Made by a program: the position numbers and the translations under genes
Shown: positions 44,410 through 55,372 of the stretch, in pieces
Numbering within the stretch: position 1 is the stretch's first letter
Layout: every line of letters begins with the position of its first letter
Source: Sideroxydans lithotrophicus ES-1
GTDB taxonomy: Bacteria; Pseudomonadota; Gammaproteobacteria; Burkholderiales; Gallionellaceae
Length of the DNA: 64,000 bases
NCBI RefSeq assembly: GCF_000025705.1
Contig: NC_013959.1
Coordinates: 2,550,001 to 2,614,000, forward strand
Direction: 5' to 3'
The notes under the pieces: generated by a model
The model's input: only the letters and a program-made list of their open reading frames with translations
The model's database searches: none
Told to the model about the DNA's origin: nothing

Positions 44410-44925
44410 TCAGGGTTTTCTTGCGCTGATCGCGGTCAGTATCCCTTGCAGGATTGCTGTCGGCGCAGGCGGGCAACCGCTCACCACCACGTCCACCGGG
44501 ATGACATTGGAGACCTTGCCGCAACTGGCGTAGCTTTCGCCGAATATGCCGCCGTCGCAGGCGCAGTCGCCGATGGCCACCACCAGCTTGGGGTCCGGCG
44601 TGGCATCGTAAGTGCGCTTGAGCGCGATCTCCATATGCCGCGACACCGGGCCCGTGACCAGCAACAGGTCGGCATGGCGCGGACTGGCGACGAATTTGAT
44701 GCCCATCCCCTCGATGTTGTAATAGGCATTGTTGACGGCATGGATCTCCAGCTCACAGCCGTTGCACGAACCCGCATCGACCTGGCGTATCGCCAGCGCT
44801 CCGCCGAACACATCCAGGATCTCCTGCTGCAATCGTTGCGTATCGACGCGCATCGACTCGTCGACTTGCGGCGGCGTTTCGGTCTTGATGCCGGTCTTGA
44901 TGATCTGTTTCAGTATCTGGTACAT
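44410..44925 (-). CDS. NuoB/HyfI-like iron-sulfur small subunit of an Ehr-type complex
   Basis: A 171-residue homologue of the complex I NuoB and group 4 hydrogenase small subunits. The four ligands of the proximal [4Fe-4S] cluster are present: Cys54 and Cys57 (AGSCNGCELEIHAV, hydrogenase-type CxxC rather than the adjacent pair of NuoB), Cys121 (AIGDCACDGG) and Cys151 (VSGCPPAP). Last gene of the six-gene operon, overlapping the large-subunit stop. The cluster probably still transfers electrons even though the partner large subunit lacks the NiFe site. Confidence 0.92.
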   Translation of the reverse strand: MYQILKQIIKTGIKTETPPQVDESMRVDTQRLQQEILDVFGGALAIRQVDAGSCNGCELEIHAVNNAYYNIEGMGIKFVASPRHADLLLVTGPVSRHMEIALKRTYDATPDPKLVVAIGDCACDGGIFGESYASCGKVSNVIPVDVVVSGCPPAPTAILQGILTAISARKP

Positions 44926-46475
44926 CAGAGGTCCTGCCCTGAGTAACTGAGGTTGAACGATTTGTTGATCAATGGGAAATCCGGCACGATGTTGTCGATG
45001 ATGGCGTGCTCAAGCAACGGCCAGTTCTGCCATGACGGATCGTGCGGATGCACGCGCGTGAGGTTGCCCTGCGCATCGGTGTGGATCGCGACCATCACCT
45101 CGCCGCGCCAGCCTTCCACCATGCCGATGCCAAAGCCGTTCGGCGGCAGTTTTGCCAGCGCTGCCGGTGCTTCGTCCTCATGGATCAGATTGACCAGTAT
45201 CTCGCGCTGCAGGCGCAACGACTCGAACAGTTCGCCAAAGCGCACGATGGCGCGCGACGCGACATCGCCGTTGCGATAGGTCGACATCTGCACATCCAGC
45301 TTGTCGTAGGGCGCACAAGCGAACTGCACGCGCGCATCCCAGGCCTGGGCACTGGCGCGTCCGGCCAACCCGCACAAGCCGAGCTGGGCAGCCAATTTTG
45401 GTGTGACCACCCCGGTGCCGATGAAGCGGTCCTGCACCCCGGCATGTTCGTCGTAGATGCCGCGCAGGATGCGCACCTGCTGTTCCAGCATCGCGCACTC
45501 TGCTTCGATGACGCGCTTGCCCTCGGCCGACAGCGTCACCGCGACGCCACCCGGAGCTATCGTGTCCATCAGGTAGCGATGTCCGAACAATGCGGCGTTG
45601 TTGCGCAGCACCTGTTCCTTGAGTATCCAGAACTGGGCGAAGCCGAACGCCAGTGCGACATCGTTGCCCAGGTAGCCGAGATCGCCCAGATGGTTGGCGA
45701 CACGCTCGCGTTCCAGCAACAACGCGCGCATCCACAAGGCACGGCTGGGCGGCGTCACCTTTGCGATGCTTTCCGCCGCCATCGCATATGCCCAGGCATA
45801 GGCCACGGTGCTGTCGCCGCTCACGCGGCCGGCGAGTTTTGCGCCTTGCTGCAGGCTCATGCTCTCGAAACGTTTCTCGATGCCCTTGTGCACATAACCG
45901 AGTCGCTCTTCCAGACGCAGTACGCGTTCGCCGATGATGGAGAAACGGAAATGTCCCGGCTCGATGATGCCCGCATGCACCGGCCCGACCGGTATCTCGT
46001 GCACGCCCTGTCCTTCCACCTGCACGAACGGATAGGCATCCGCCTCGTCGGTACGGCTCGCCGCCGCATCGAAATCCTTGCGCAAGGGAAAACTGCCGCT
46101 GTGCCATGCACCGTGGCGCACCCATTTGCGATGGTCGTGCCCTTCCTGCGCGTAGATGCCCAACATGTCGTAAGTCGCCCGTTGCATGCGGCTGGCGGCC
46201 GGAAAGATCTGGCTGATATCCGGATACACGGGCTGTTCTGCCGACAGCTGCACGTTCAGGCAGACCATGCCGGTCTCGTTGAGCAACAGCACATGCAACT
46301 GGAATCCACGATCCTGCTGCCTTGTGTCGCTGCCCCACAGCGCCACCAGCCTGCCGCCGCCGTCGTGCACTTGCCGGCAGATCTCGTGCAGATCATCCGG
46401 CCCGATCTCGCCCGTCCACGCGGGAAGCGCGTCGGTCAGTCGGGTCAGTTTGAGGTTGGGATGTTTGATCGGCAT
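44925..46475 (-). CDS. NuoCD/HyfG-like large subunit lacking all NiFe cysteines
   Basis: A 516-residue fusion of a NuoC-like N-terminal domain (about 1-145) with a NuoD/hydrogenase large-subunit domain. GPVHAGIIEPGHFRFSIIGERVLRLEERLGYVHKGIEK matches group 4 hydrogenases. Where those enzymes have R-x-C-G-x-C, this protein has RVSGDS (Ser219 and Ser222). At the C-terminus, where they have DPCxxC, it reads KSFNLSYSG, again without cysteine. It therefore cannot bind the NiFe centre and is not a hydrogenase. It is equally not a NuoD, since the GPVHAG block is hydrogenase-type. This pattern defines the Ehr (energy-converting hydrogenase-related) group. Substrate unknown. Confidence 0.9.
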   Translation of the reverse strand: MPIKHPNLKLTRLTDALPAWTGEIGPDDLHEICRQVHDGGGRLVALWGSDTRQQDRGFQLHVLLLNETGMVCLNVQLSAEQPVYPDISQIFPAASRMQRATYDMLGIYAQEGHDHRKWVRHGAWHSGSFPLRKDFDAAASRTDEADAYPFVQVEGQGVHEIPVGPVHAGIIEPGHFRFSIIGERVLRLEERLGYVHKGIEKRFESMSLQQGAKLAGRVSGDSTVAYAWAYAMAAESIAKVTPPSRALWMRALLLERERVANHLGDLGYLGNDVALAFGFAQFWILKEQVLRNNAALFGHRYLMDTIAPGGVAVTLSAEGKRVIEAECAMLEQQVRILRGIYDEHAGVQDRFIGTGVVTPKLAAQLGLCGLAGRASAQAWDARVQFACAPYDKLDVQMSTYRNGDVASRAIVRFGELFESLRLQREILVNLIHEDEAPAALAKLPPNGFGIGMVEGWRGEVMVAIHTDAQGNLTRVHPHDPSWQNWPLLEHAIIDNIVPDFPLINKSFNLSYSGQDL

Positions 46476-46479
46476 CGCG

Positions 46480-47937
46480 TTATCCTAACAAAGCCGCCGC
46501 CTGGCGATACCAGTCGGCTAGATAAGGCGGCATATACAGGCCGAGCATCAGCACCAGCAGCAAATGGGCGAACACCGGGATCAGCGCGGGCGGATGCGGC
46601 AGCGGTTTCGCGGTGGTCTCGCCGAACACGATGGGTTGTATCTTGCCGAAGATGGCGGCAAAGGCGATACCCAGCGCGATCAGCAGGATGGGAGTGGTCC
46701 ATGGATATTCGTGCATGGCGGTGGTGATGATCAGGAACTCGCTGGCGAACACGCCGAACGGCGGCATGCCGAGGATGGCGAAGGTGCCCAGCGCCAGACC
46801 CCAGCCCACCGTCGGGCTGACCTGCAGCAGTCCGCGGATGTTCTCCATCACTTGCGTGCCGGTCTTTTGCGCCGCATGGCCGACCGCAAAGAAGATCGCC
46901 GATTTGGTCAGCGAATGCACGGTCATGTGCAGCAGGCCGGCGAAGGTCGCCACCGGACCACCCATGCCGAAGGCGAAGGTGATCAGGCCCATGTGTTCGA
47001 TGGAGGAATAGGCGAACATGCGCTTGATGTCCTTCTGGCGGAACAGCGAGAACGCTGCCACCACCACCGAGAGCAGGCCGAAACCCATCATCAGGTTGCC
47101 CGCGAAGTGCGTCCCCAGCGAACCGTCGACCAGCACCTTGCTGCGCACCACCGCGCACAGCGCGACGTTGAGCAGCAGCCCGGACAATACGGCAGAGACC
47201 GGCGTCGGACCTTCGGCATGCGCGTCCGGCAGCCAGCTGTGCAACGGCACCAGGCCGACCTTGGTGCCGTAACCCACCAGCAGGAAGATGAAGGCGAGCT
47301 TGAGCACGGTCGGTTCCAGACTGCCCTTGACCTCGTTCAGGTGCGTCCACAGCAGCGCGTTGCCGCCCTCGCCCAGCACGCGCTCGGCGGCGAAGTACAG
47401 CAGGATGGTGCCGAACAGCGCCAGCGCGATGCCCACACCGCACAGGATGAAATATTTCCACGCCGCTTCCAGGCTGGCCGGGGTGCGGTACAACGATACC
47501 AGCAGCACCGTGGTCAGCGTCGCCGCTTCCATCGCCACCCAGACGATGCCCACGTTGTTGGTGGTCAACGCCACCAGCATGGCAACGGTGAACAGCTGGT
47601 ACATGCTGTAGTACAGGTGCAGCATGCCGATCGTCAACTTGCCGTGGTGCTGTTCGATGCGCATGTAGGGGCGCGAGAACAGCGAGGTGGTGAAGGCGAC
47701 AAAGGCGGTCAGCGCGACCAGGAACACGTTGAACTGGTCGATGAAGAATTCTTCGCCGAAGGCGACCTGCGGGCCCGATTCGATCACGCGCATGGTCAAT
47801 ACCATCGATGCGGCGAAGGTAAGAAAGCTCATCAGCGAGTTGAGTTCCGCCGCCCAGCTGCGCGAGCCGAACACGGCCAGCAGCCCGCCGCCCAGCAGCG
47901 GGGTGAGCAACAGCGCCATGAGTTGCAGGTCAATCAT
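46480..47937 (-). CDS. HyfF/NuoL-M-like antiporter subunit
   Basis: A 485-residue membrane protein with about fourteen helices of the Mrp/NuoL/NuoM ion-pump family. KVGLVPLHSWLPDAHAEGPTPVSAVLSGLLLNVALCAV is the diagnostic helix pair with its channel lysine and prolines; RMFAYSSIEHMGLITFAFG and HSLTKSAIFFAVGHA add further conserved lysines and histidines. It starts eight bases inside the end of the HyfE-like gene. One of two pump subunits in this operon, expected to translocate H+ or Na+. Confidence 0.93.
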   Translation of the reverse strand: MIDLQLMALLLTPLLGGGLLAVFGSRSWAAELNSLMSFLTFAASMVLTMRVIESGPQVAFGEEFFIDQFNVFLVALTAFVAFTTSLFSRPYMRIEQHHGKLTIGMLHLYYSMYQLFTVAMLVALTTNNVGIVWVAMEAATLTTVLLVSLYRTPASLEAAWKYFILCGVGIALALFGTILLYFAAERVLGEGGNALLWTHLNEVKGSLEPTVLKLAFIFLLVGYGTKVGLVPLHSWLPDAHAEGPTPVSAVLSGLLLNVALCAVVRSKVLVDGSLGTHFAGNLMMGFGLLSVVVAAFSLFRQKDIKRMFAYSSIEHMGLITFAFGMGGPVATFAGLLHMTVHSLTKSAIFFAVGHAAQKTGTQVMENIRGLLQVSPTVGWGLALGTFAILGMPPFGVFASEFLIITTAMHEYPWTTPILLIALGIAFAAIFGKIQPIVFGETTAKPLPHPPALIPVFAHLLLVLMLGLYMPPYLADWYRQAAALLG

Positions 47938-48592
47938 CCTTCAGCTTCTCCATGTGGGTGATGTCCAGGCTGTCGAAGGTCTCGCGGATCTGGAAGAAGA
48001 AGATGCCGAAGATGAAGGTGGCCACCAGCACGTCCAGCGCGATGCCCAGCTCCACCACCAGCGGCATGCCCTGCGTGGCGCTGGTCGCGGCGAAGAACAG
48101 GCCGTTCTCCAGCGACAGGAAAGCGACCACCTGGGTGACCGCCTTGCGCCGCGTCAGCATCATCAGCAGCGACAGCAGCACGCAGGCCAGCGCGATGCCG
48201 ACCAGGCCGCGCGTGAGGCCTTCGGCCAGTTGCGCGATCGGCGCGGCCAGGTTGAACGCGAAGATCACTAGCGCGATCCCCACCAGCATGGTCGCGGGGA
48301 TGTTGATCAGCGTCTCGACATCCCAGCGCACGTTCAGTTTGCGTATCAGACGGTGCAGCAACCAGGGAAGCACCAGTACCTTCAACAGCAGCGTCAGTCC
48401 GGCGGAATAATACAAATGGTGTTGCGCCGTGGAATAGGCGACCACGAAAGTGCTCAGCGCCAGCACGAAACCCTGCAGCGCGAACAGATTGATCAGCGAG
48501 AGGATGCGCCGCTGCGACAGCATCGCGAAAGCGATCAGCAGCAGCAGCGCGGCCAGCAGGTTGATCAACTGGAGATTGAGCGGGATCTGCAT
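47930..48592 (-). CDS. HyfE-like membrane subunit
   Basis: A 220-residue membrane protein with about seven helices, in the place and with the size of HyfE, whose C-terminal part is NuoK-like (LLMMLTRRKAVTQVVAFLSLENGLFFAA with the membrane glutamate). The start at 48592 shares TGATG with the stop of the HyfC-like gene; the longer open frame upstream is a shadow inside that gene. Confidence 0.88.
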   Translation of the reverse strand: MQIPLNLQLINLLAALLLLIAFAMLSQRRILSLINLFALQGFVLALSTFVVAYSTAQHHLYYSAGLTLLLKVLVLPWLLHRLIRKLNVRWDVETLINIPATMLVGIALVIFAFNLAAPIAQLAEGLTRGLVGIALACVLLSLLMMLTRRKAVTQVVAFLSLENGLFFAATSATQGMPLVVELGIALDVLVATFIFGIFFFQIRETFDSLDITHMEKLKDD

Positions 48593-49551
48593 CAGGCCCC
48601 CAGCAGGAAATGGATCAGCAGGCCCAGCACTGCCAGCAGGAACGCGGTGCCCAAAAACTCCGGCGCGCGGAAGATGCGCACCTTGGCCGACACGATCTCC
48701 AGCACGGCTAGCGCCGCCCCGGCCAGCATCATCTTCAGCAGCAGCGCCACGATGGCCAGCGTCAGGCCGCCCCAGTTGCCCACCTCGGCGATGCCATGCG
48801 GCAGGAACAGCGCGATGCCGATGGAGATGTAGGCGAACAGTTTCAAACTGCTGGCCCATTCGATCAATGCCAGATGGCGCGCCGAATACTCGAGGATCAT
48901 CGCCTCGTGGATCATCGTCAGTTCCAGGTGTGTGCTGGGATTATCCACCGGGATGCGCGCATTCTCTGCCAGCAGCACGATCACGAAGGCCAGCGCGGCA
49001 AAGGCCAGGCTCGGGTACAGCATGAAATGGTGGTGCGCCAGGGCTTCGACGATGCGCGGCAGCTGGGTGGAATGGCTGATCATCGACGCGGTGAAGAACA
49101 CCATCAGCAGGGCAGGTTCAGCCAGGAAGGACACCAGCATCTCGCGCCTGGCACCAAGCGAACCGAACGCAGTGCCGATGTCCATCGCCGCGAGTGCCAG
49201 GAACACGCGCGCCACAGCGAACACGCCGACCAGCGCGATCACATCGGCAGCCTGCGAGAATGGCAGATCCACCGCGATGATCGGGATGATGGCAGCAGCC
49301 AGCCACATGCAGCCGAACACGATGTAAGGGGTGACGCGGAACAGCGGCGAGGCGTTATGCGCCATCACTGCATCCTTGTTGAACAGTTTGCGCAACACGC
49401 GATAGGGTTGCAGCACGCCCGCGCCGGAACGGTTCTGCAACCAGGCCTGGCACTGGTTGACCCAGCCGGTCAGCAACGGGGCGAGCAATACCACCAGCAG
49501 CAGTTGCGCCAGCTGGAACAGAATCGCGAAGATGAGTTCGTAGTTTTCCAT
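48592..49551 (-). CDS. HyfC/NuoH-like membrane subunit
   Basis: A 319-residue homologue of HyfC/HycD and complex I NuoH, which joins the peripheral redox arm to the ion pumps. Conserved features include GVLQPYRVLRKLFNKD near the N-terminus and LLAENARIPVDNPSTHLELTMIHEAMILEYS, the glutamate-rich loop typical of the family. The start shares TGATG with the preceding HyfB-like stop, so translation is coupled. Confidence 0.92.
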   Translation of the reverse strand: MENYELIFAILFQLAQLLLVVLLAPLLTGWVNQCQAWLQNRSGAGVLQPYRVLRKLFNKDAVMAHNASPLFRVTPYIVFGCMWLAAAIIPIIAVDLPFSQAADVIALVGVFAVARVFLALAAMDIGTAFGSLGARREMLVSFLAEPALLMVFFTASMISHSTQLPRIVEALAHHHFMLYPSLAFAALAFVIVLLAENARIPVDNPSTHLELTMIHEAMILEYSARHLALIEWASSLKLFAYISIGIALFLPHGIAEVGNWGGLTLAIVALLLKMMLAGAALAVLEIVSAKVRIFRAPEFLGTAFLLAVLGLLIHFLLGA

Positions 49552-51560
49552 CACACGAACACCAGCAACACGACCAGGGTGACGAAGGTGTAGGTCAGGT
49601 ACAGATGGATACGCCCGTGCTGCAGCACCGACGACCAGGAAGAAAGCTTCTCGGCCAGGGATTTGATCGGCAGGTACAGCAGGTACCACAGGCGGTCGTC
49701 GCTTTGCCCGTGATAGCGCGGATGGGTGTCGAAGGGACTCGGCACTTCCCGCTCGATCTTGAAGAACGGTTCGAAGATGCGGCGGATCGGTTGGCCGAAA
49801 CCTTCTGCGGTATCCTGCATACGCGCATTCTGCGCCGGAAAACCGCAATCCCACGCTGCTCCGCGGCGCAAGCGGCCATGGTACAGACGCCGCACCAGCA
49901 CCGAGGCGAGCAGCATCACGCCGAGCACCGCCAGCAGGAAATACAGCGGGCTATAGCTGGCACGCGCGGTATCCACCGGTGCCAGGAACACCCAGTTTGC
50001 GGCCGCATTCCCCAGGCCGGAGCCGAGCAGCGCGTGCGAGACGAAATCGATCTGATGCACCACGAACACCGGCGCCAGCCCCAGCGCAACGCAGCCGAAC
50101 ACCAGCCAGGCCATGCCGATGCGTTCCCATCTGCCGGCATCGTGCGCGTGATCCAGCACCTTCTCGCGCGGCTGGCCGAGGAAGATCACACCGTAGAATT
50201 TGACCATCACATAGGCGGCCAGCGCGGCGGCCAGCGCGATCACCGCGGCGGCCACCGGCACCAGCATGTTGATGTAGCTGTTCGGCAAGCCAGGCGACAG
50301 CAGGAACGCCTGCAGCAGCAGCCACTCCGACACGAAGCCGTTGAGCGGCGGCAAGCCGGAGATCGCCAGCACGCCGACCAGCATCAGCACCGCCGCCCAC
50401 GGCATGTGATGGATCAGTCCGCCCAGGCGCCCCATGTTGCGCTCGCCCGTCGCATGCAGGATGGCACCGGTGCCGACGAACAGCAGGCTCTTGAAGAAGG
50501 CGTGGTTCAGGCTGTGATACAGAGTCGCGGTGAGCGACAGTGCGGCAAGTGCATTCTTGCCATAGACGTGAAAGATGATGGTCAAGCCGATACCCACCAG
50601 CAGCAGGCCGATGTTCTCGATCGAGGAATAGGCCAGCAGCCGTTTCATGTCGCCCTGCACGGCGGCGAACATCACACCGAATACCGCGGTGATCAGACCC
50701 AGCGCCAATGCCAGCACACCCCACCACCAGAGCTGTGTGCCCAGCAGATCGAAGGTCACGCGCAGGATGCCGTAGATCGCCGTCTTCAGCATCACCCCGC
50801 TCATCAGCGCCGACACCGGCGAAGGCGCAGCGGGATGCGCCTCGGGCAGCCACACATGCAACGGCAGCACACCGGCCTTTGCACCAAAGCCGAACAAGGC
50901 CAGCAGGAACGCCGCCGAAGACCAGAACGGGGTCAGCCCGGCACCGCGCATCGCGTCGAACGTGTAAGCGCCGATGCCATGCCCGCCCTGCATCACGCCG
51001 AAGCAAAGCAGGATCGCGATGGCACCGACGTGCGCGATCAGCAGGTAGAGAAAACCGGCCCGGCGAATATCCGGAACGTTGTGATCCGTGGTGACCAGAA
51101 AATAGGAAGACAGCGCCATGGTCTCCCACGCCACCATGAACATGTAGGCGTCATTCGCCAACAGCACCAGCGTCATGCCGACGAGGAACAGGTGATATTC
51201 CAGGCACAGCAGTCCGAGCGTGCCGCCAGCCATGGTTTTGAAATAGCCCGCGCTGAACAGCGACACACCCAGCGATGCACCACCGAGCAGGATCAGGAAG
51301 AACGCGGACAGCGGGTCGAGCCGAAGATGGAAAGGCAGCTCGGGCAACCCGAGCGGCAACACCATGATGTTGGGAGCCGCATCCAGCGCCCACAGGCCTG
51401 TGGCAGCCAACAGCAGCGATGTCAGCGCACTGAGCGGGAAGACGACGTTATTGATCAACTGCGGAGCGCGTTGCAGAACCAGACCTGCCACGCCGAGCAC
51501 GATCCAGAACTGGACTAACCAGCCAACCACATCTAGCGGCAATATTCCAACGGCGTCCAT
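49551..51560 (-). CDS. HyfB-like large antiporter subunit
   Basis: A 669-residue membrane protein with about sixteen helices, first gene of the operon. It belongs to the HyfB/HycC/NuoL family: FGAKAGVLPLHVWLPEAHPAAPSPVSALMSGVMLKTAIYG, DMKRLLAYSSIENIGLLLVGIG and LYHSLNHAFFKSLLFVGTGAILHATG carry the pump lysines, glutamates and histidines. The C-terminal extension (CGFPAQNARMQDTAEGFGQPIRRIFEPFFKIE) is typical of HyfB. A HyfD-like third pump is absent. Confidence 0.94.
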   Translation of the reverse strand: MDAVGILPLDVVGWLVQFWIVLGVAGLVLQRAPQLINNVVFPLSALTSLLLAATGLWALDAAPNIMVLPLGLPELPFHLRLDPLSAFFLILLGGASLGVSLFSAGYFKTMAGGTLGLLCLEYHLFLVGMTLVLLANDAYMFMVAWETMALSSYFLVTTDHNVPDIRRAGFLYLLIAHVGAIAILLCFGVMQGGHGIGAYTFDAMRGAGLTPFWSSAAFLLALFGFGAKAGVLPLHVWLPEAHPAAPSPVSALMSGVMLKTAIYGILRVTFDLLGTQLWWWGVLALALGLITAVFGVMFAAVQGDMKRLLAYSSIENIGLLLVGIGLTIIFHVYGKNALAALSLTATLYHSLNHAFFKSLLFVGTGAILHATGERNMGRLGGLIHHMPWAAVLMLVGVLAISGLPPLNGFVSEWLLLQAFLLSPGLPNSYINMLVPVAAAVIALAAALAAYVMVKFYGVIFLGQPREKVLDHAHDAGRWERIGMAWLVFGCVALGLAPVFVVHQIDFVSHALLGSGLGNAAANWVFLAPVDTARASYSPLYFLLAVLGVMLLASVLVRRLYHGRLRRGAAWDCGFPAQNARMQDTAEGFGQPIRRIFEPFFKIEREVPSPFDTHPRYHGQSDDRLWYLLYLPIKSLAEKLSSWSSVLQHGRIHLYLTYTFVTLVVLLVFV

Positions 51561-51724: not shown

Positions 51725-54610
51725 TCACAGATTCGCATCGTAGAGGTGGAAACGGTTCTTGCCTGCCTTCTTGGCGACATACATGGCCTGATCGGCATGG
51801 CGCAGCAAGGTATCGCCCTCTTCATCGTCGGCAGGGTAGCAAGTTACACCGACGCTGGCTGATACGGCGATCGATCGCTCCTCGAACCATACCGGCATGG
51901 CGATGGTCTGCACGATGCGTTCCAGCACCTGGATGCATTCGAGTTCCTGCGACAAGTCGTTGAACAACACCACGAACTCGTCCCCGCCCAGACGCGCCAG
52001 GGTATCGCCCGCGCGCAAGACATCCTGCAAACGGCGGGTGATGTCCACCAGCAACATGTCGCCGGTCTCATGTCCGTATCGGTCATTGACGTCCTTGAAG
52101 CCGTCGAGGTCGATGTAGCAGATGGCCAGTGTCTTGCCGCTGCGCTGCGCATGCGCGATGGCCTGCCCCAGGCGATCGGACAGCAGGCGCCGGTTGGGAA
52201 TGCCGGTCAGCGCATCGTGATTGGCGACATGGCTCAGCTCTGCCTCATGTTCCTTGAAATAGGTAATATCCGAGAACACTGCCACATGCCGCTGTACGTT
52301 GCCGGCATCGTCGCAGATCACCGAGATCGACAGCAGTTCAGCATATATCTCGCCGCTCTTGCGCCGATTCCATATCTCGCCGCGCCAAGCCCCCTCCCGC
52401 TTCAGCGACGCCCACATCGCGGCATAGAACGCCTTGTCCTGATGACCTGAGCTCAGGAGTCCCGGATTCCTGCCCAGCACTTCCGCGCGGCTATAGCCTG
52501 TGATCTGCGTGAAGGCGGGATTGACGTTGACAATGATGTTGTCCGCGTCGGTGATGACAATGGCTTCCTGGCTGTTGTCGAACACACTGGCAGTAATGCG
52601 CAATCCTGCCTCTGCCTGTTTCAATTCGGTGATGTCGCGCCCGATGATGACCAACCCCTTGCGCCTGCCTTCCTCGTGGAACAGCGGCTTCTTGATGACA
52701 TCGAAAGTCATCTCGCCGCCGTCCGGCAACGGAATGATCTCCTCCACGCGCGAGATGCCATCCTTGCGCCAGGCTTCTTCGTCGGTCTCATGGCAATGCA
52801 GTAGCGCATCCCTGTAATGCGGATCGGCTATCTCGGCCAGCTCCCTATCGGTCTTGCCTGCACAGTCCACCTCCCCGAGGCCGAATGCCTGCCGTGCCGA
52901 CTGGTTGGATTCCAGCCAGCGTCCTGCGCCGTCCTTGAACTGGATCGGGTCGGGGATCGCCTCGATCAACGTGCGCAGCATCTCCTCGTTCTGGCGCAAC
53001 CTGGCCGACTTCTCCTCCACCAGACGCATCAGTTCTTCCTTGCTGCGCCGCATCTCGGAGATGTCCACCAGCGTTCCGATGATAGCCGGGCGTCCCTGAT
53101 ATTCGATCCGGCGCCCGTGCGCGTCGACAACGATCATCGAGCCGTCGCGTTTGTAGGCGGTGAAGCTGTAACGAGTCGCGTCCGCCTCTCCTTCGAGCCG
53201 GCGCCGGATGTTCTCCTCGACCAGCGGCTTGTCCTCCGTCTTGACAAGCTGGATGGCCGGGACCACATCGACAAGTTCTTCAGCCGAATCGAAACCGAAC
53301 ATATCCAGCAATCCGGGATTGGCATAGCGGAAGAACCCGTCCTGGATGATGTAGATCCCGACCAGCGACTGCTCGACCAGCGCACGGAACTTGGTGGACT
53401 CTTCCGCGACCAGTCCCTCCAGACGGCTGCGGTAGTCTTCCAGCAACTGCGAGGTCTGCTTTCTGCGCGTGATGTCGCGCGCCACGCCCAGCACCCCGAT
53501 CAGCTGCCCCTGATTGTCGCGCATCGGTGTCTTGATGGTCTCGAACAAACCGCGGGAGCCATCGGCAAATTCGAGCCACTCTTCGTTGGCACTCGACTGG
53601 TCTTCCGCCATCGCCTTGAGGTCATGCTTGCGGAAGGCATCTGCTTGTTCCCGGCGCACGAAATCGTAATCGGTCTTGCCGATGATGTCTTTCTCGCTGG
53701 CCCCATATAAGGCTTCGAAGCGCCGGTTGCATGCGAGATAGAGTCCATCCGCATCCTTCAGCCAGACCAGGTCCGGGATGGTGTCGATGAAGGTTCGCAG
53801 GAACAGCTCGTCCACTTCGAATTTCTCTTCCATCAGCCCCGATGCCATGGTCTGGGTCAGATCGTGCTCGCTCACCAGCCCGGCCATCCGCCCCGCACTA
53901 TCGACCAACACCAGATGGCGCACTTTTCTTGCAAGCATCAGCTCCGCCGCCTCATTGATCGTGGCATCGCTGCGGATGGTCAACACCGGCGATGTCATCA
54001 CTTCCGCGAGATGAACGCCGACCTGTGCCGGCTCGCGCGAATAGAAACGCACCACATCCCTTTCGGTGACGATGCCGATGGGCCTTTCGTCTTCGACCAC
54101 CACCACGCAGCTCTCGCGTTGTGCCTGCATCAGGTTGAGCGCCTGCATCAGGCTGCTATGCGGTGGCAGGCTGGTGACAGAGCGCTGCGCCACAGTCATG
54201 ACCTGCCTGCGCCCGGCCAGCACAGTCAGATTCAGGTGCAGACGGAAATCCGTTTCGCTGACCACTCCCGCAACCACTCCATCATCATCCACCAGCACCA
54301 GATGGCGGATACCTTCGCGCATGCAGATCTGATAAGCCTCCAGGCAATCCATCTTTCCGGGAACGACGACGACGGGTGCGGACATGCTGGTACGCAACTG
54401 CGTGTCAGGAGGTGAAGAAGCTCGCATCGCATGCAGGATGTTGCGTTCGGTGACGATGCCGACCGGGTGCCCGGCTTCGTCGATGATCACGATGGAGGAG
54501 AAACGGCGCTGCGCCATGATGAGCGCAGCCTCGCCGATGGTGGAATCGACCGCAAGGCAGGTGACGGCACGCGTGGCGATGTCGGTCAGGGGATATTGCT
54601 TATTGGTCAT
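51725..54610 (-). CDS. CBS-PAS diguanylate cyclase
   Basis: A cytosolic c-di-GMP synthase of about 961 residues with an unusual sensor stack. Four CBS motifs (two Bateman pairs, about residues 5-255) each show the VGIVTERN/DVVR-type ending and would bind adenine nucleotides. Four PAS domains follow (about 265-790), then a GGDEF domain with intact RLGGDEF near residue 873. No EAL domain and no membrane helix are present. Linking energy charge (CBS) and redox or ligand state (PAS) to c-di-GMP is a reasonable inference. The ATG at 54610 gives MTNKQYPLTDIATRAV; a TTG seven codons upstream is the alternative. It follows the Crp/Fnr-type gene on the same strand. Confidence 0.93.
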   Translation of the reverse strand: MTNKQYPLTDIATRAVTCLAVDSTIGEAALIMAQRRFSSIVIIDEAGHPVGIVTERNILHAMRASSPPDTQLRTSMSAPVVVVPGKMDCLEAYQICMREGIRHLVLVDDDGVVAGVVSETDFRLHLNLTVLAGRRQVMTVAQRSVTSLPPHSSLMQALNLMQAQRESCVVVVEDERPIGIVTERDVVRFYSREPAQVGVHLAEVMTSPVLTIRSDATINEAAELMLARKVRHLVLVDSAGRMAGLVSEHDLTQTMASGLMEEKFEVDELFLRTFIDTIPDLVWLKDADGLYLACNRRFEALYGASEKDIIGKTDYDFVRREQADAFRKHDLKAMAEDQSSANEEWLEFADGSRGLFETIKTPMRDNQGQLIGVLGVARDITRRKQTSQLLEDYRSRLEGLVAEESTKFRALVEQSLVGIYIIQDGFFRYANPGLLDMFGFDSAEELVDVVPAIQLVKTEDKPLVEENIRRRLEGEADATRYSFTAYKRDGSMIVVDAHGRRIEYQGRPAIIGTLVDISEMRRSKEELMRLVEEKSARLRQNEEMLRTLIEAIPDPIQFKDGAGRWLESNQSARQAFGLGEVDCAGKTDRELAEIADPHYRDALLHCHETDEEAWRKDGISRVEEIIPLPDGGEMTFDVIKKPLFHEEGRRKGLVIIGRDITELKQAEAGLRITASVFDNSQEAIVITDADNIIVNVNPAFTQITGYSRAEVLGRNPGLLSSGHQDKAFYAAMWASLKREGAWRGEIWNRRKSGEIYAELLSISVICDDAGNVQRHVAVFSDITYFKEHEAELSHVANHDALTGIPNRRLLSDRLGQAIAHAQRSGKTLAICYIDLDGFKDVNDRYGHETGDMLLVDITRRLQDVLRAGDTLARLGGDEFVVLFNDLSQELECIQVLERIVQTIAMPVWFEERSIAVSASVGVTCYPADDEEGDTLLRHADQAMYVAKKAGKNRFHLYDANL

Positions 54611-54658
54611 TGTTGCTGCCCGTTCTGCCAACTGTCACCCCAGGATGCAGGGGTCGCG

Positions 54659-55372
54659 TCATCGCTCATTTCCCAACAGTCGTGTGAACTCATCTCTCAC
54701 TACGCTGTAGCACTCGCAGCATTGCTTCTCCAGCCCGGCACGATTCAAAACCTTGACATGCCCCCGGTTGTAATCGATCAACCCTTGCTCGCGCAATTCT
54801 CCGGCTTCCTCGGTGATGCTCTCTCTGCGCACGCCCAGCATGTTGGCGATGGCCTCGTGCGTCAGGCGGAAATCGTCGGATAGCGACTTGTCGTTGATCA
54901 GCAACAGATGCTGGCACAGTTGCTGCCGCAACGAATGGTGCTTTTCGCAGACTACCGTTTGCGCGATCTGCGTCAGCGAAGCCTGTGCATACAGCAGCAA
55001 AATATCGCACAAAGTCGTCAAATTTTTGCTCATCTCGCACAGCCTGTCTGCAGCAACCTGAAAGACATGACCGGATGTCTCTACCGTCGCCCAGTAGGGT
55101 ATCCCTGCACCGCCCAGCACCTGGGCCACGCTGAACATACCTTCATTGCCGATCACGGCGACCCCGGCCGATCCTCCGTTCTCCAGCCGGTAGAACAGCG
55201 AGATGGCACTATCGATGGGGAAGTACACATGGCTAAGACGCTCCCCCGACTCGGCAAGTTGCTCACCCGCCTTGAGGTGGACGACTTGAAGATGTGGGAG
55301 CAGTTCTTGAAGTTCGTGCGGATGTAGCGCCGCCAGCAGGCGATTTTGCTCCGGGTTATGACGATGCGGCAT
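54659..55372 (-). CDS. Crp/Fnr-family transcription regulator
   Basis: A 237-residue regulator with an N-terminal cyclic-nucleotide-binding-like beta barrel (about 20-140, VVHLKAGEQLAESGERLSHVYFPIDSAISLF) and a C-terminal winged helix (LTHEAIANMLGVRRESITEEAGELREQGLIDYNRGHVKVLN). The arginine and glutamate of the cAMP site and the four cysteines of the Fnr cluster are not evident, so the ligand is unknown; the wording resembles the group found beside CBS/GGDEF genes. It lies about 48 bases before the CBS-PAS-GGDEF gene and may control it. A CCEC cluster near the C-terminus is noteworthy. Confidence 0.9.
   Translation of the reverse strand: MPHRHNPEQNRLLAALHPHELQELLPHLQVVHLKAGEQLAESGERLSHVYFPIDSAISLFYRLENGGSAGVAVIGNEGMFSVAQVLGGAGIPYWATVETSGHVFQVAADRLCEMSKNLTTLCDILLLYAQASLTQIAQTVVCEKHHSLRQQLCQHLLLINDKSLSDDFRLTHEAIANMLGVRRESITEEAGELREQGLIDYNRGHVKVLNRAGLEKQCCECYSVVRDEFTRLLGNER

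Follow-up and report, generated by a model that had tools for sequence, protein, structure and literature searches.

A hydrogenase-4-like Ehr operon of Sideroxydans lithotrophicus ES-1 without [NiFe] ligands or a ferredoxin domain

How could electrons enter a hydrogenase-like complex that has a single iron-sulfur cluster and no [NiFe] site? The question is raised by an operon in a 64,000-nucleotide stretch of the genome of Sideroxydans lithotrophicus ES-1 (contig NC_013959.1, forward-strand positions 2,550,001 to 2,614,000; hereafter the window, in whose numbering coordinates are given). On sequence grounds the operon is a member of the known class of energy-converting (Ech) hydrogenase-related (Ehr) complexes (Marreiros et al., 2013 and Coppi, 2005, as cited in excerpts of PMC6349859, PMC10284858, PMC6688271 and PMC13194489), and its type is named Ehr-1 here. 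The class, its missing cysteines and the fact that its function is unknown are already in print (excerpts of PMC6349859, PMC10284858, PMC10432482, PMC4378227 and PMC7304191). Ehr complexes are widespread, and excerpts of PMC10284858 and PMC4378227 call their function unknown; the data presented here point to complexes under strong constraint that lost their electron wire step by step, and define the residues in the old active site. New here is the reading of how Ehr lost its wire: the small subunit keeps a helix of HyfH, without the ferredoxin domain that follows it in that protein.

The operon consists of six coupled genes on the minus strand (51560-44410), identified from open reading frames and from matches to Pfam and NCBIfam profiles, with adjoining genes overlapping or sitting a few bases apart. 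The leading gene, ehr B (49551-51560, 669 amino acids), encodes a HyfB/NuoL-type ion-translocating subunit with a Proton_antipo_M domain, for which the best NCBIfam model was hydrogenase 4 subunit B (930.5 bits). It is followed by ehr C (48592-49551, ATG at 49551, 319 amino acids), a HyfC/NuoH-like connecting subunit matching PF00146 (NADHdh) with 119.6 bits, and by ehr E (47930-48592, ATG at 48592, 220 amino acids), a HyfE-like membrane subunit matching NF008556 with 84.5 bits, under the curated cut-off of 136. The second ion-translocating subunit, the HyfF-like ehr F (46480-47937, 485 amino acids), carries Proton_antipo_M and matched NF005045 (hydrogenase 4 subunit F) with 883.9 bits. Profiles, alignments and a tree identified ehr L (44925-46475, 516 amino acids) as a HyfG-like large subunit of NuoC-NuoD type (30-kDa plus 49-kDa) without [NiFe] ligands, and ehr S (44410-44925, 171 amino acids) is a HyfI/NuoB-like small subunit (20-kDa) with one expected [4Fe-4S] cluster. 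The two pumps and the NuoH-, HyfE-, NuoCD- and NuoB-like subunits listed in a preliminary description of this DNA were thus borne out. The gene order is that of hyfB, C, E, F, G and I of Escherichia coli hyf, with hyfA, hyfD and hyfH absent, and the six genes presumably correspond to about Slit_2559-2564. Absence of HyfA, HyfH, HyfD and the hyp genes had also been claimed. E. coli HyfA, HyfH, HycF, HypA-E, NuoE and NuoF gave no match in the 64-kb window, and the HyfD query matched just the two pump genes; the claim about hyp genes therefore holds for HypA-E, HypF not having been searched, nor HyfJ/HycH or HycI.

Comparisons were made over 139 Ehr-1 loci: the window, 18 loci of relatives (L024-L041), 80 from public genomes (L044-L123) and 40 from an even class-wide draw of genomes (L124-L163). 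At least two pairs among them, L109/L135 and L108/L145, each represent a single contig that was sampled twice; L042 and L043 are not Ehr-1 and lie outside the Ehr-1 counts. Large-subunit homologues (E <= 1e-30) were found in 49 of 100 relatives, 47 of Ehr-1 type by score and two (G051, G063) only distant, and in 45 of the 369 genomes of the class-wide draw, 44 of Ehr-1 type. Forty of these 44 supplied the loci, the other four being the window's own genome, G165, G298 and G414. A profile scan with a 16-sequence alignment (A1) gave at least 582 relatives in public genomes; the best 80, which were taken, came mostly from Beta- and Gammaproteobacteria, and also from Nitrospirae, Acidobacteria, a deltaproteobacterium, a Mariprofundus and a Geobacter. 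The six-gene arrangement is not due to chance, because all six genes were found in 113 of the 139 loci and the standard order in 112, the odd one being L057, where a second, partial cluster precedes the six genes. At least one gene was missing in 26 loci, 20 times at a contig end and six times otherwise (L107, L110, L118, L141, L147, L152). Two of the latter, from one family, hold scattered Ehr genes: SulP-hyfF-large subunit with B, C and E missing in 12 kb (L147:173-5484), and a lone large subunit (L141:8691-10289). Two full Ehr operons stand in tandem in L066 (4858-19515), the large subunit of the second one carrying a Cys at position 222.

The large subunit has lost its [NiFe] ligands. As the preliminary description had read the motifs, S219 and S222 occupy the cysteine positions of E. 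coli HycE and HyfG and of the L043 hydrogenase, and NLSYSG aligns gap-free with DPCYSC. The former N-terminal CxxC corresponds to R217-S222 (RVSGDS; 45810-45827, minus strand) and the former C-terminal DPCxxC to N504-D515 (NKSFNLSYSGQD; 44931-44966, minus strand). Among the 139 large subunits, position 219 was S in 120, C in 9, A in 8 and V in 2; position 222 was S in 109, T in 27, A in 2 and C in 1; position 510 was S in 119, A in 14 and N in 5, with one gap; and position 513 was G in 135 and A in 3, with one gap. Counted by protein, 129 have none of the NiFe cysteines and ten have one, never more. Other residues of the old site are almost invariant. Asp221, between the lost N-terminal cysteines, was present in all 139 and is Ile in three reference hydrogenases; Asn508 stands for the Asp of the same three, and N504, K505, N508, Y511 and D515 were each found in 138 of 139. 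Asn504 and Lys505 are not specific to Ehr, being found also in the cysteine-bearing relative upstream of the L057 Ehr operon.

In a tree of 65 large subunits (364 columns, LG+G4), a branch with 100/100 support set Ehr-1 apart from a sister family, named Ehr-2 here, from hydrogenases and from NuoD. Support was 99.7/99 for the Ehr-2 clade and 100/100 for hydrogenases plus NuoD, and the Geobacter locus L123 fell inside the Ehr-1 clade; the second L170 large subunit (Ehr-2), trimmed to 93 amino acids, was dropped. The operon has the antiporter-like, NuoH-like, large- and small-subunit genes of Ehr, with the NiFe cysteines missing and the four cluster ligands of the small subunit kept. Unlike an active group 4 [NiFe] hydrogenase, none of the 139 large subunits had more than one NiFe cysteine, and a match to E. 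coli HyfH/HycF was confined to the upstream cluster of L057; unlike NuoD of complex I, the large subunit has I171 and G220 at the quinone His/Tyr positions and branches elsewhere. The earlier assignment to Ehr, which a NiFe cysteine set or a place among active hydrogenases or NuoD could have overturned, survived both comparisons. By profile the large subunit scored 283 bits with HycE, 157 with MbhL, 138.5 with Nqo4 and 104 with 6u8y_L, chain L of 6u8y being, as we take it, the MBS large subunit; HycE was also the closest solved fold (Foldseek E 3.6e-32). An AlphaFold model of the large subunit alone had a mean predicted local distance difference test (pLDDT) score of 80.3 and was not used for pocket geometry, because pLDDT fell below 50 in the pocket (145-196 and 506-516). 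In L177 and L178, two species of one genus, a separate group-4 cluster with HyfI- and HyfH-like genes and a large subunit ending in DPCISC is apparently a true hydrogenase.

The small subunit suggests how a single cluster came to be left. Its cluster cysteines, retained as first described, were conserved at C54, C57 and C121 in all 132 small subunits and at C151 in 131 (one gap), and a complex with one cluster is what the sequence presents. The first 17 residues (44875-44925, minus strand) form a helix that matches the HyfH N-terminus, judged from alignment, an AlphaFold model and a shuffle test, and the two-cluster ferredoxin domain that follows in HyfH is absent. The model placed the helix at residues 2-11 with modest confidence. 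Its mean local score with E. coli HyfH was 31.1, against 16.1 +- 3.9 for shuffled copies; with start codons picked mechanically, 53 of 132 small subunits beat every shuffle and a looser pattern fitted 85. In Ehr-1 small subunits this helix runs straight into the HyfI part. In Ehr-2 (L042, L168-L176, L179) HyfH is fused to HyfI beside a cysteine-less large subunit. Among twelve fused small subunits, six have two ferredoxin cluster motifs (L042, with an irregular first motif, L168, the first copy of L170, L171, L173 and L174) and six have one cluster ligand set (L169, the second copy of L170, L175, L176, L179 and the upstream copy of L057). Taken from these alignments, the Ehr-1 small subunit derives from a HyfH-HyfI fusion. 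The extra clusters number two, one or none among relatives, so that the absence of the ferredoxin is most readily understood as derived, a stepwise loss from a wired ancestor. The excerpts of the cited Ehr literature make no mention of a small subunit that retains the HyfH helix without its ferredoxin domain, and a prior report is possible.

E. coli HyfH/HycF matched 1 of the 139 loci, in the upstream second cluster of L057; five open frames within 3 kb of the cluster contained ferredoxin motifs, one of them (L031, opposite strand) having two, and HyfA-like matches in two loci (L031, L047) lay on the opposite strand outside the cluster. The L057 upstream cluster (L057:8-4413) is partial, stands directly before the Ehr operon, and combines a large subunit with all four NiFe cysteines and a small subunit with a one-cluster ferredoxin domain. 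That large subunit falls outside Ehr-1 in the tree, its exact place being weak (30.9/86), and the cluster may be an intermediate between hydrogenase and Ehr.

The putative ion path through the membrane subunits is intact. In the HyfB-type subunit E146, K228, K306, K357 and E412 were conserved in 110 of 110 sequences and K454 in 108, and in the HyfF-type subunit E137, K226, K305 and K345 were conserved in 127 of 127 and E400 in 126. The charged residues of the NuoH-like subunit were invariant or nearly so, and the conserved charged residues of all these subunits are presumed to line the ion path. The NuoH-like subunit also has a loop, N204-H215 (48907-48942, minus strand), with a three-residue insertion relative to E. 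coli HyfC/HycD and the Ehr-1-specific residues N204, H208 and H215, each present in 115 of 115. Ratios of nonsynonymous to synonymous substitution rates (dN/dS) for the six genes of the window against L026, L049 and L032 ranged from 0.059 to 0.246 over the 18 comparisons, the small subunit having the lowest value of the six genes each time (0.059, 0.061, 0.088). Invariant pump residues and these ratios together argue that, in the window's lineage, the operon is not decaying. Strong conservation in many bacteria indicates that the complex does something, and the invariant cluster cysteines together with the most constrained gene, that of the small subunit, favour a redox role for the cluster.

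The explanation that we tentatively prefer, at somewhat less than even confidence, is that the Ehr-1 complex is fed by a soluble low-potential carrier, and that its single cluster and an acceptor in the rebuilt pocket couple electron transfer to ion pumping. It builds on what the sequences show: the complex has the membrane and connecting parts of a hydrogenase-4-type enzyme, from which the [NiFe] site and the ferredoxin domain are gone and in which the last [4Fe-4S] cluster and the ion path persist. A diffusible carrier, for example ferredoxin or flavodoxin, may dock on the small subunit at the former HyfH site, where electrons would enter from it or, in reverse, leave to it. The cluster would hand electrons to an acceptor held in the pocket around D221, N504, K505, N508 and Y511 and the NuoH-loop residues N204, H208 and H215. 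Electron flow might then power the movement of H+ or Na+ through the two pumps, HyfB and HyfF, or the ion gradient might drive the reverse. Carrier, acceptor, direction and ion are in this scheme what we infer, and it is consistent with a large subunit nearest HycE by both profile and fold and with the invariant charges of the pumps.

Several results weigh against this proposal. The most obvious acceptor, quinone, would be without its known ligands, because the positions of the Nqo4 residues His38 and Tyr87, which we take to bind quinone, are I171 (138 of 138 ungapped sequences) and G220 (136 of 139). These positions were read from a profile alignment with Thermus Nqo4, because in the residue alignment the ES-1 NuoD was incomplete and E. 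coli NuoCD was not correctly aligned around position 219. Open reading frames within about 10 kb of the 139 loci were clustered, and clusters present in at least four loci were viewed and mostly named by eye; no redox gene family recurred, none of the clusters being recognisable as ferredoxin, NuoE/F or formate dehydrogenase. NuoE and NuoF, searched for directly, matched 0 of 139 loci. The hunt for co-occurring redox genes, proposed in the preliminary description, thus yielded no recurring one beside the operon, and a soluble carrier is hypothetical because the wire was lost without replacement and no redox family recurs nearby. We found no data on the expression, biochemistry or structure of the complex, and the excerpts of PMC8788666 and PMC3770913 contained no mention of Slit_2559-2564. 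Formate dehydrogenase has been proposed as an Ehr partner (excerpt of PMC6349859). Of the 44 Ehr-1 genomes, 19 had a TIGR01591 match above its cut-off, as had 75 of 325 others (P = 0.009, uncorrected for two association tests or kinship), a weak lead that was not adopted; the ES-1 genome had no match above the cut-off.

DAB and the cyanobacterial NDH-1MS are inorganic-carbon uptake systems with a complex-I-type pump, and by analogy with them Ehr-1 could be a non-redox device, a reading that is possible though doubtful. Ion movement through HyfB and HyfF would be driven or gated by a small molecule or an anion that the rebuilt pocket binds or hydrates, the cluster would be structural or a redox gate, and in some lineages the complex would take up inorganic carbon or an anion, with SulP and a Cam/CcmM-like protein as partners. 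The NiFe site, the ferredoxin domain and the quinone ligands have all been lost and the pumps and pocket are invariant, which favours this reading; the invariant cluster cysteines speak for redox. Upstream of hyfB, at a distance of at most 3.5 kb and in the same orientation, a SulP gene was found in 5 of 18 loci of one Betaproteobacteria-rich set and in 10 of 59 of the other, 15 of 77 together, where roughly 0.1% per locus would be expected; this expectation assumes about 2.3 SulP per genome, a figure read by eye, and ignores relatedness. The linked SulP proteins form about four divergent groups. For the even class draw the upstream figure was 0 of 34. Counted over the whole fetched stretch, SulP was found in 5 of 18, 11 of 80 and, for the class draw, 1 of 40. 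Two linked SulP proteins that were checked scored above the cut-off of TIGR00815 (sulP) but far below that of the BicA model. A Cam/CcmM-like protein stands beside ehr in 4 of 139 loci, directly before hyfB in two (L039 and L059); the others are L028 and L056, the latter copy being truncated at the end of its contig, and L032 has a fragment. These proteins score under the curated cut-offs. The window itself has neither neighbour, and the only SulP match of its genome is about 0.87 Mb away. RuBisCO genes, of which the window's genome has two, in agreement with the two forms reported for ES-1 (excerpts of PMC3770913 and PMC8788666), showed no association with Ehr-1 (23 of 44 versus 153 of 325 genomes, P = 0.53). 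The specific version, a non-redox machine whose pocket binds a small anion or CO2/HCO3- coupled to H+/Na+ movement, with SulP and a Cam/CcmM-like carbonic anhydrase in some lineages, is quite unlikely, and inorganic carbon as a general role, unsupported by the even class draw and by RuBisCO, was kept as a rival. Literature searches on Ehr with SulP, and on SulP, bicarbonate and hydrogenase-4, returned no report of a link. If true, a non-redox reading would mean that a hydrogenase can lose its redox chemistry yet keep its pump, and its carbon or anion form would place Ehr-1 beside DAB and NDH-1MS as a third way of using a complex-I-type pump for the uptake of inorganic carbon or anions.

Redox chemistry could also run through quinone, bound by the pocket in a new way in a minimal quinone oxidoreductase with a soluble carrier, perhaps reversed for making low-potential electrons in lithotrophs. 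We regard this as unlikely. The fold is that of NuoCD, and ES-1 uses reverse electron transport (excerpt of PMC8788666) and has nif genes (excerpt of PMC3770913), but the Nqo4 His38 and Tyr87 positions are Ile171 and Gly220, HycE outscores Nqo4 by profile (283 versus 138.5 bits), and about half of the class-draw Ehr-1 genomes have no RuBisCO match, so that Ehr-1 is not tied to autotrophy by the Calvin-Benson-Bassham cycle. It is very unlikely that a reaction would occur directly at the [4Fe-4S] cluster, by analogy with MBS, which reduces sulfane sulfur. The cluster beside the old active site is the sole remnant of the redox chain and the large subunit is related to 6u8y_L (104 bits), but MBS is not nearest (HycE 283, MbhL 157 bits) and no recurrent sulfur gene was recognised beside the operon in the neighbourhood clustering. 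That Ehr-1 is a dead hydrogenase remnant, drifting, is extremely improbable. Active site and ferredoxin domain are both gone, the Geobacter Ehr has been called non-functional (excerpt of PMC13194489) and the genes look broken or scattered in L071, L086, L106, L141 and L147; against this stand a dN/dS between 0.059 and 0.246 for each of the 18 gene comparisons, the invariance of pump, cluster and pocket residues in loci of several phyla, and the order kept in 112 of the 139 loci.

Genes around the operon were otherwise regulators, SulP, housekeeping genes (for example methionyl-tRNA synthetase) and reverse-strand shadows. Directly upstream in the window, on the minus strand, are genes for a CBS-PAS-GGDEF protein (51725-54631) and a Crp-type regulator (54659-55372). 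Small proteins named by eye recurred beside ehr, ribbon-helix-helix-like in 22 loci (for example L100:4501-4728, L090, L104) and XRE-like in 10 gammaproteobacterial loci (for example L155:3729-3956), and both may be regulators. Genes for Kup-type potassium transporters, likewise named by eye, lie near ehr in L031, L036, L040, L041 and L106, a further hint of ion homeostasis. Directly downstream in the window, from 44254 to at least 39486 on the minus strand, are V/A-type ATPase genes (subunits E, I, C and c by Pfam). The second ATP synthase of ES-1 is reported as nine genes, Slit_2558-2550, and its advantage is called unknown (excerpt of PMC3770913). An ATPase-coupled Ehr was rejected: V_ATPase_I matched in 4 of 100 relatives versus 49 of 100 for the large subunit, and because only four carry the I subunit the adjacency is taken as incidental. 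The ATPase and Ehr are 1.1 Mb apart in G004 and on two contigs in G023, and G041 has the ATPase and no Ehr match.

Among known systems, hydrogenase 4 (E. coli hyf) shares with the window the gene order B-C-E-F-G-I and the subunit types, and HycE of the related formate hydrogenlyase is the best relative in the PDB; the window differs in having no hyfA, hyfD or hyfH and no NiFe ligands, and in D221, N508 and the NuoH-loop residues. Complex I has homologous modules (NuoB, CD, H, L/M) and the same fold, whereas the window's Ehr is without the quinone His/Tyr and NuoE/F are unmatched in the 139 loci. The Pyrococcus MBS (6u8y) and MBH (6cfw) have related large subunits, with 104 and 157 bits, more distant than HycE with 283, and the large subunit is thus not closest to MbsL. 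MBH has an active site and MBS has more clusters. DAB and NDH-1MS have the NuoL-type pump in common with Ehr-1, and Cam/CcmM-like or SulP genes lie near some Ehr-1 loci, but the Ehr-1 head is a hydrogenase-type pair of large and small subunits, the carbonic-anhydrase-type partner is not constant, and no DabA- or CupA-type protein was recognised, none having been looked for. Ehr-2 likewise has a cysteine-less HyfG-type large subunit and HyfB/C/F-type membrane subunits, mostly HyfE too; it differs by its HyfH-HyfI fusion with one or two cluster sets, by another gene order and by its own clade. The Ehr complexes of the published excerpts likewise have HyfB/E/F-, NuoH-, NuoCD- and NuoB-like subunits and no NiFe cysteines, with no difference in kind found from the window. 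The Geobacter locus L123 has the same large- and small-subunit type as the window.

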